Origin: Candidatus Parcubacteria bacterium
GTDB lineage: Bacteria; Patescibacteriota; Patescibacteriia; UBA1558; GWA2-36-10
Assembly (NCBI GenBank): GCA_002869235.1
Contig: PKTI01000024.1
Location: 1-40,610 of the forward strand
DNA: 40,610 nucleotides
Reading direction: 5' to 3'
Shown: positions 36,121 through 38,460 of the stretch, one piece after another
How positions within the stretch are numbered: the stretch's first letter is position 1
Layout: each line of letters begins with the position of its first letter
Made by a program: the position numbers and the translations under genes
The notes under the pieces: model-generated
What the model saw: only the letters and a program-made list of their open reading frames with translations
Database searches by the model: none
Told to the model about the DNA's origin: nothing

Positions 36121-36143
36121 TACAAAAGCGCAAAAATAAAATA

Positions 36144-36169
36144 AAAAACTGCCCTTGAGGCAGCTTTTT
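36144..36169 (-). terminator. Terminator of the Trm9-like gene
   Basis: AAAAAGCTGCC and GGCAGTTTTTT arms on the minus strand (one G-U pair) around a five-base loop, starting inside the stop codon of the Trm9-like gene (36168). Confidence 0.8.
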
Positions 36170-36854
36170 AAATAAATTCTTCTTTGGATTTTCTGACCAA
36201 ACAATTGATATTGAATTTGGTCTTATACACCCCTTCGGGCTTGAGTTCAAAATGCGCGGTTTGCAAAAGGTGTGTCAATTCCTTATCAGTAAAACTATGA
36301 TAATATCGCCAAGCTTTGGAGCCTTCATAAGTAGTCCAGGGTATGAAAAAATCATTCCAAGATTTTTTGTGCCAAAAATTTTTCATGGCATACTGCAAAT
36401 ATTTCTTTTGCCATAGATTCCAGTTGGTCATAAACAAGTAACCACCTGGTCTAAGCCAGCGATGAATCTTGAAAAGCAAATCTAGACGCTCCATCTTGGT
36501 GGGTAAATGATGAAAAGAGGCTATCATACAAACCATATCAAAACTGTCTGGGTTAAAATTGACCTCCGTCATATCAGCAGCCAAAAATTTGTGCCCTGGA
36601 AAATCCTCTTTGGCTTTTTTGATAAGCTCTTTGGAAAAATCAACCCCCAAATAACTAAAATTTTTGTCTATTTTGTCAAAAGACTTGAGCAATCTACCAT
36701 TTCCGCAACCCAAGTCTAAAACCTTGAAATTATCTCGTAAATATGGTATAAAAACTTGTAATTCCTCCCACGGATAAGCGCGTGAGGCGGAAAACTCTTC
36801 AGCAATGTCATCATAGACTTGCTTAATATTATCTTTTATTTTTTCAGCTTTCAT
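36168..36854 (-). CDS. Trm9/ALKBH8-like SAM-dependent methyltransferase
   Basis: A 228-residue Rossmann methyltransferase. SAM motif I is VLDLGCGNGRLL (residues 45-56), motif II is YLGVDFS, motif III is FLAADM. Beyond the general fold it carries segments that mark eukaryotic Trm9 and the ALKBH8 methyltransferase domain: VYDDIAEEFSASRAYPW (13-29), FHHLPTKMERL (114-124), FFIPW (169-173) and RYYHSFTDKEL (183-193). Trm9, with Trm112, methylates cm5U34 in tRNA to mcm5U34, the step after Elp3. Its start codon overlaps that of elp3 on the other strand, which supports the same pathway. The assignment of substrate is inference; a generic methyltransferase is the alternative. Confidence 0.78.
   Translation of the reverse strand: MKAEKIKDNIKQVYDDIAEEFSASRAYPWEELQVFIPYLRDNFKVLDLGCGNGRLLKSFDKIDKNFSYLGVDFSKELIKKAKEDFPGHKFLAADMTEVNFNPDSFDMVCMIASFHHLPTKMERLDLLFKIHRWLRPGGYLFMTNWNLWQKKYLQYAMKNFWHKKSWNDFFIPWTTYEGSKAWRYYHSFTDKELTHLLQTAHFELKPEGVYKTKFNINCLVRKSKEEFI
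36827..36832 (+). promoter_or_regulatory. Candidate -10 box for elp3, inside the Trm9-like gene
   Basis: TATTAT 21 bases before the elp3 ATG, within the first codons of the opposite gene. No good -35 box; offered because elp3 has no upstream noncoding DNA. Confidence 0.35.
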
Positions 36855-38460
36855 GTCTAAAAATATAGATCAACAACTAATCGAAGAAATTGTCCTGGAA
36901 TTATACAATAAAAATTGTTCCAGCGAGCATGATTTTATGCAAGCTTCTAGACAAGTGTTTTCCAAAAGGAAAATGGTACCTGTCTCTAAAGCCAATTTAA
37001 TTGTAGCATATAAAAATCTGATAAAAAAGGGCAAAATCAAAGAAGATAAGCATTTTGCCAAATTACTGACCAAAAGAGCTGTCCGCACTTTATCTGGTGT
37101 TTCTGTAATTACAGTATTATCAAAACCTTTTACCTGCCCAGGCAGGTGTGTTTATTGCCCCTTGGAGCCAGATATGCCCAAAAGTTATCTATCCAATGAA
37201 CCAGCGGCCGCCAGAGCCAAGATGAATATGTTTGACCCTGTCCGTCAGGTCAATATGCGTATTCAAGCTCTACTCAACAATGGTCACCAAGTAGACAAAT
37301 TGGAAATGCTAGTTTTGGGTGGCACTTGGTCGTTTTATCCCAAAGACTATCAGGAAGAATTTATTCGTGATCTATTTTATGCAGCCAATACCTTTGATCA
37401 AAAAGAAAAAAGAGAAAGACTAAGTCTACTTGAGGAACAAAAAATAAATGAAGACACAAAATATAAAATAATTGGTCTAACTTTGGAAACTAGGCCCGAC
37501 TTCATCAATGAAGATGAAATAAAAAGATTGAGGTACTTGGGTACAACTAGAGTGCAAATTGGTGTCCAGCACACTGACAACAAAATACTTGATCTGATAA
37601 ACAGAGATCATGATATAGAAGAAAGTATCCGCGCTACCAAAATGCTCAAAGAAGCTGGGATAAAAGTAGATCACCATTACATGCCAGACCTACCAGGCTC
37701 TAGTCCAGAAAAAGATCTCAAAATGTTTGAGTATGTTTTTTCTTCACAAGACTTGCAGCCTGACCAAGTCAAAATATATCCTTGTGTGGTCAATGAATAC
37801 GCTCCGCTCTACCGTTGGTATGAACAAGGTAAATATAAACCTTTTTCTGAAAAAGACCTTCTGGAGCTTTTGCTTAAAATAAAAGAACTGGTGCCTCCTT
37901 GGGTTAGAATCAATAGATTGATAAGAGATATACCAGAAGAAAGTATTGTTGCTGGAAACAAAATCACCAATCTCCGACAATACCTACAAGCGGAAATGAA
38001 AAAAAGAGGCAAGGCCTGCCAGTGTATCCGCTGTCGCGAAGTAAAAGGGGAAACAGTAGAAAAACCAAATTTGATAAAAAGAGAATATCCAGCTTCTGAC
38101 GGCCAAGAAATATTTTTGAGTTTTGAGTCAGAAGACGAAAAAAAGATATATGCTTTTTTGAGATTGAGATTTAATGAAAACCCAAAAGAAAATATATTCC
38201 CTGAACTGAAAAATGCTTCTTTGATCAGAGAGCTTCATGTCTATGGTAAGATGATACCAGTCTATAGTGAAGACTCTGATGACGAAATAAGTCAGGCCCA
38301 ACACCTGGGACTAGGAAAACAACTAATGGCTGAAGCAGAAAAAATCACTCAAGAAAGAGGGCTGACAAAAGTAGCTGTTATTTCCGGAATTGGTGTTAGA
38401 AACTACTACAAAAAACTTGGCTATAAACTCGAAGGCACTTATATGACCAAAGAGTTATAA
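36853..38460 (+). CDS. elp3: tRNA wobble-uridine cm5U synthase Elp3 (radical SAM + GNAT)
   Basis: A 535-residue, full-length single-subunit Elp3. The N-terminal helical part includes the tRNA-binding basic stretch (LLTKRAVRTLSGV). The radical-SAM cluster is Cys95, Cys99, Cys102 in KPFTCPGRCVYCPLEP. The zinc-type block CQCIRC sits at 389-394. The C-terminal acetyltransferase domain has QAQHLGLGKQLM (481-492) for acetyl-CoA and the family end ISGIGVRNYYKKLGY. Elp3 builds the carboxymethyl group on U34 of tRNA from acetyl-CoA by radical chemistry; single-subunit forms exist in archaea and some bacteria, without the other Elongator subunits. It is head-to-head with the Trm9-like gene, and the two ATG codons share two bases. 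Confidence 0.97.
   Translation: MSKNIDQQLIEEIVLELYNKNCSSEHDFMQASRQVFSKRKMVPVSKANLIVAYKNLIKKGKIKEDKHFAKLLTKRAVRTLSGVSVITVLSKPFTCPGRCVYCPLEPDMPKSYLSNEPAAARAKMNMFDPVRQVNMRIQALLNNGHQVDKLEMLVLGGTWSFYPKDYQEEFIRDLFYAANTFDQKEKRERLSLLEEQKINEDTKYKIIGLTLETRPDFINEDEIKRLRYLGTTRVQIGVQHTDNKILDLINRDHDIEESIRATKMLKEAGIKVDHHYMPDLPGSSPEKDLKMFEYVFSSQDLQPDQVKIYPCVVNEYAPLYRWYEQGKYKPFSEKDLLELLLKIKELVPPWVRINRLIRDIPEESIVAGNKITNLRQYLQAEMKKRGKACQCIRCREVKGETVEKPNLIKREYPASDGQEIFLSFESEDEKKIYAFLRLRFNENPKENIFPELKNASLIRELHVYGKMIPVYSEDSDDEISQAQHLGLGKQLMAEAEKITQERGLTKVAVISGIGVRNYYKKLGYKLEGTYMTKEL
36900..36905 (-). promoter_or_regulatory. Candidate -10 box for the Trm9-like gene, inside elp3
   Basis: Perfect TATAAT on the minus strand, 46 bases before the ATG at 36854 and inside elp3 codons 16-18. 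The -35 region is poor. Confidence 0.4.

Follow-up and report, generated by a model that had tools for sequence, protein, structure and literature searches.

An Elp3 and a Trm9-like methyltransferase encoded head to head in a Parcubacteria genome likely form, together with MnmA, a wobble-uridine pathway whose two dedicated enzymes operate without Trm112 and replace MnmE and MnmG. The analysis establishes the identities of the genes, the residues they carry, their adjacency, the absence of MnmG, MnmE and free Trm112, and the presence of MnmA and the relevant tRNAs. The chemistry built on these observations is inferred and is worded accordingly below.

A head-to-head gene pair encoding Elp3 and a Trm9-like enzyme

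The stretch of DNA that we analysed (the window; 40,610 nucleotides) is contig C36 of a 967,429-base genome that is 97% complete and assembled in 59 contigs. A Trm9-like SAM-dependent methyltransferase of 228 amino acids (aa) is encoded at positions 36168 to 36854 on the reverse strand, and a 535-aa Elp3, with an N-terminal extension, a radical SAM domain and a GNAT/KAT domain, at 36853 to 38460 on the forward strand. A single CATG (36852 to 36855) contains both ATGs, which overlap, one on each strand, making the pair strictly head to head. The first ATG was chosen for both genes, and the true starts are not experimentally known. The nearest relative, L138, has the identical CATG arrangement; its contig is labelled Ignavibacteriales, possibly through misbinning, and its pair is 66% and 74% identical to that of the window. 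Directly 3' of the methyltransferase gene lies a terminator-like hairpin of 13 pairs with a T-rich tail (36142 to 36170, reverse strand), recognized by a consensus match only.

On TIGR01211 the 535-aa protein reaches 542 bits (cut-off, 350), the match spanning residues 46 to 535, and it exceeds the Pfam cut-offs for Radical_SAM and Radical_SAM_C, with GNAT marginally under its own (20.6 against 20.7 bits). It also matches solved Elp3 proteins from archaea, bacteria and yeast, with E values down to 3e-119. C95, C99 and C102, the CQCIRC block at residue 389 and the GNAT end are all present, and E212, K307 and Y309 occupy the places of M. infernus E207, K302 and Y304, an offset that we counted by hand from the structure-match alignment. 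Those three M. infernus residues are essential, their mutants being without all or most activity (PMC13315578). The window protein is predicted to make cm5U34, an inference made without an activity assay.

General libraries say little about the methyltransferase. Pfam finds only a class I core, with the generic Methyltransf_25/11 models first, and no Trm9 model appears among the Pfam or NCBIfam matches. UbiE and BioC were considered and set aside, the library matches being generic or far below cut-off. The identity therefore rests on profile, residues and context. A single-sequence search of the PDB placed fungal Trm9 (Yarrowia, 5cm2_Z) first at 2e-17, ahead of a runner-up at 3e-15, and a 49-member family profile gave 5cm2_Z 118 bits against 92 for the next structure, 1ve3; 5cm2_Z is the single Trm9 structure among the profile's PDB matches. 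The protein contains the segments VYDDIA..FS.SR.YPW, FIPW and RYYH. In yeast Trm9, the substitutions R29A, H115A, R241A, Y243A and N271A have strong effects on the affinity for tRNA and on kcat (PMC5372719), and all five positions are matched in the window enzyme, by R25, H115, R183, Y185 and N215, under what we take to be the yeast numbering (mapped via 5cm2_Z and the yeast sequence). Across 59 head-to-head relatives, R25 is kept in 58, H115 and R183 in 57 each, and N215 in 55; conservation is weaker at Y185 (yeast Y243), which only 30 of the 59, about half of the family, retain.

The predicted structure of the methyltransferase is a high-confidence class I fold (pLDDT 94), and Foldseek ranks Trm9 second. 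Trm9 is not singled out by fold: in a separate comparison it reached Z 20.8, at rank 15 among many near ties, and METTL6 (Z 22 to 23) and several other class I enzymes scored equally well or better. We consider the protein a likely cm5U34 carboxyl O-methyltransferase, a function that is inferred, as methylation was not assayed.

The original prediction, made from the sequence alone, had placed a complete Elp3 with the three cluster cysteines, the CQCIRC block and the GNAT end head to head with a methyltransferase at 36168 to 38460, and had assigned the latter's segments to the Trm9/ALKBH8 type. Both reading frames lie at that place, the Elp3 features held by profile and residues, and the segments are present as described. 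A profile search of the 228-residue protein, which it had also proposed, returned Trm9 as the best solved match and not an unrelated family, with the generic models ranking first in Pfam. The Elp3 and Trm9-type identities thus held on three counts: the profile matches, the functionally important residues and an adjacency conserved in relatives.

Conservation of the pair across genomes

In a sample of 287 genomes of the phylum, we found Elp3 in 106 and the full-length Trm9-like methyltransferase, counted at 120 bits or more, in 78. All but one of the latter also carry Elp3 (77 of 78, against 106 of 287 overall; hypergeometric probability, 4e-44), and the sole exception, G066, is 78% complete. 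The association is far beyond chance, with the reservation that this statistic ignores kinship and the genomes are not independent. Genomes without Elp3 yielded weak matches to the methyltransferase profile, in which the signature residues were missing where checked.

The original prediction had suggested testing whether the pair is conserved in Patescibacteria. It is: 65 of the 78 genomes carry it head to head, at spacings of up to about 400 nt. Four more pairs are separated by up to 1.7 kb, and one further, weaker head-to-head pair (93 bits) occurs in G212. In a separate collection of genomes, Elp3 adjoins the methyltransferase in 51 of 80 relatives, divergently every time, and the divergent pair is found in contigs labelled Patescibacteria, Chloroflexota, Fermentibacteria (Fermentibacterota), Deltaproteobacteria (Myxococcota) and Nanoarchaeota. 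In one Gracilibacteria relative a single frame of 527 aa encodes the methyltransferase together with a glycosyltransferase domain of the WecG type (L187:2965-4548).

A proposed wobble-uridine pathway and its rivals

MnmG was not found in the window genome at a threshold of E 1e-20, and neither was MnmE above cut-off, its model matching only at positions 183 to 336, the GTPase stretch, below cut-off. Given the completeness and fragmentation of the assembly, any single gene absence could reflect a gap. Across the phylum sample, MnmG is present in 6 of 287 genomes and absent from 281 at the same threshold, and MnmE is above cut-off in 5 of 287. None of the six MnmG genomes has Elp3, an outcome that alone has a chance probability of 0.06. 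Matches to MnmE in 150 further genomes were discounted as below cut-off; those listed cover the GTPase part and probably represent, by inference, Der or a related GTPase. The U34 modification route of most of the sampled genomes is unresolved, 281 of 287 being without MnmG and 181 of 287 without Elp3.

MnmA is present in the window genome (367 bits), as are U34 tRNAs for Lys, Glu, Gln and Arg, each with a C34 partner. A profile search of the same genome found no free-standing Trm112; the best stretch (G000:C56; 18.7 bits, cut-off 22) opens a protein of 301 aa that carries a different methyltransferase domain. Trm112 is above cut-off in 10 of 287 genomes, compared to 78 with the methyltransferase. 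Characterised eukaryotic Trm9/ALKBH8 requires Trm112. Because no free-standing Trm112 was found, the pathway would be a Trm112-free variant, and with this partner missing we do not file the pair as a Trm9-Trm112 holoenzyme.

Two observations on other tRNAs were made in passing. A tRNA-Ile with a UAU anticodon (L064:1498-1574, reverse strand) is present, with no TilS match in the genome, so that AUA is apparently read there without lysidine. At L080, two tRNAs with the Leu anticodons UAA and CAA (positions 1501-1576 and 1599-1675) have a short, class-I-like length, and ordinary-length Leu(UAA) and Leu(CAA) tRNA genes exist elsewhere besides these.

In the pathway we propose, Elp3 would use SAM and acetyl-CoA to make cm5U34; candidate substrate tRNAs include Lys(UUU), Glu(UUC), Gln(UUG), Arg(UCU) and Gly(UCC). 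In the next step, the Trm9-like enzyme would use SAM to convert the cm5U carboxylate to mcm5U without Trm112, and MnmA would add the 2-thio group on the Lys, Glu and Gln tRNAs, giving mcm5s2U. This route would take the place of MnmE/MnmG. The reactions, the substrate tRNAs and the order of the steps are all inferred, without measurement of an activity, a product or a tRNA. Esterification is not obligatory, as about a quarter of the sampled Elp3 genomes are without the methyltransferase.

The original prediction had inferred that this bacterium makes mcm5U (or a related ester) with two adjacent genes and no other Elongator subunits, perhaps instead of or beside MnmE/MnmG. The two-gene claim is supported, with mcm5U as an inferred rather than a measured product, and "instead" is favoured by the lack of MnmG and of MnmE above cut-off. 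The absence of further Elongator subunits stays an inference, outside what our searches covered. The search it had proposed for mnmE, mnmG and a Trm112-like protein returned none above cut-off and a single weak Trm112-like stretch, fused.

Three alternatives deserve consideration. The one that survives best, though we think it unlikely, is that the enzyme does esterify cm5U but requires an activator that escaped detection, either a diverged Trm112 or the Trm112-like domain fused to another methyltransferase in this genome. The subthreshold stretch at G000:C56 speaks for it; against it, that stretch is fused to a different methyltransferase, and Trm112 is far rarer in the sample than the methyltransferase, as counted above. 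It is somewhat less plausible that the enzyme, like METTL6 with its m3C32, modifies a different site in tRNA and adjoins Elp3 through shared regulation of tRNA maturation rather than membership of one pathway. METTL6 structures are indeed among the best fold matches, with higher Z scores than Trm9, but the profile that gives Trm9 118 bits leaves METTL6 outside its best 60 matches (below about 46 bits), the Trm9 cm5U-site residues are conserved, and the occurrence of the methyltransferase tracks Elp3 nearly one to one. Slightly less likely still is a small molecule or the Elp3 protein as the target, leaving plain cm5(s2)U as the final nucleoside: the class I fold is common to many small-molecule enzymes and generic Pfam models match first, but the Trm9-specific R25, R183, N215, PW and RYYH, which lie outside the SAM-binding core, are kept here, and those generic methyltransferases of the phylum that were checked lack them.

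A second neighbour of Elp3 and comparison with known systems

Leaving G212 apart, 28 Elp3 genomes have no full-length methyltransferase at 120 bits. We searched 80 genomes, chosen by their Elp3 and methyltransferase status, with an asparagine-synthetase profile and found a lone domain of this type, 260 to 283 aa long, in six. All six have Elp3, and none has the signature methyltransferase. The lone domain adjoins Elp3 in every case, divergently at 90, 208, 111 and 637 nt and co-directionally at 14 and 20 nt (L033:16-864 and L256:1492-2277 on the reverse strand; L035:702-1481, L044:3210-4022 and L255:1504-2292 on the forward strand; and L257/L264, split). The sample is small, comprising six genomes from four families, and the copy in G058 is split over two contigs. 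By profile and by fold the best matches are asparagine synthetases, the nearest solved being asparagine synthetase B and human ASNS. The other asparagine-synthetase matches lie in frames of 511 to 647 aa and are probably ordinary asparagine synthetases, although this is an inference. On an Elp3 tree built by a quick method, the lone-domain label requires at least three separate changes, one of which falls inside a family whose remaining members carry the methyltransferase. UDG, LPG synthase, TP methylase and POR genes beside Elp3 in other methyltransferase-less genomes showed no pattern.

A bolder reading, which has as much against it as for it and which we offer as a lead rather than a result, is that an exchangeable neighbour of Elp3 finishes the cm5U carboxylate, the methyltransferase giving the mcm5U ester and the lone domain the ncm5U amide. 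Since ester and amide both form on this carboxylate, the lone domain is a candidate for the enzyme that forms ncm5U; according to a 2019 paper, none was known in any organism (PMC6412123). ncm5U34 has been reported in Thermoplasma acidophilum (PMC5372719). Against the ncm5U reading, a PP-loop domain might also serve thiolation or an unrelated reaction.

The Elp3-methyltransferase pair resembles the eukaryotic mcm5U pathway of Elongator (Elp3) and Trm9-Trm112 or ALKBH8-TRMT112, with identical Elp3 cysteines and catalytic residues, a methyltransferase bearing the Trm9 signature and five functional residues, and thiolation available. It differs in that no free Trm112 was found, the host is a bacterium, the genes are head to head, and thiolation would fall to the bacterial MnmA. 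Archaea such as Haloferax and Sulfolobus solfataricus have both homologues, with mcm5(s2)U proposed (PMC2584109, PMC5372719), and in S. solfataricus the two are clustered (PMC2584109); most archaea, however, have Trm112, in some fused to Trm9-like domains (PMC2584109, PMC5372719). Dehalococcoides mccartyi DmcElp3, a bacterial member of this Elp3 family, has a solved structure (5l7j) to which the window protein aligns at 8e-109, but no methyltransferase partner is described for it in the literature sections bearing on it. The bacterial MnmE-MnmG(-MnmC) xm5U34 pathway shares the wobble uridine target and MnmA for 2-thiolation, whereas its enzymes and chemistry are unrelated and its MnmG is missing from the window genome and nearly all of the sample.

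A 2017 review stated that relatives of Trm112-dependent methyltransferases are undetectable in bacteria, where the wobble uridine is modified via MnmE-MnmG (PMC5372719), and we found no such bacterial pair described in the open-access literature searched on Elp3 in Patescibacteria and on CPR wobble modification. The original prediction had known of no experimentally described bacterial pair; the pair is indeed new for bacteria, but not outright, given the archaeal precedent (PMC2584109). Across a large bacterial phylum whose sampled genomes almost all lack MnmG, our results place a Trm9-type enzyme next to Elp3. If the proposed pathway is correct, it would provide a simple two-gene, Trm112-free system for the in vitro study of mcm5U synthesis, and the swapping of neighbours at Elp3 would single out a candidate for the missing ncm5U enzyme.
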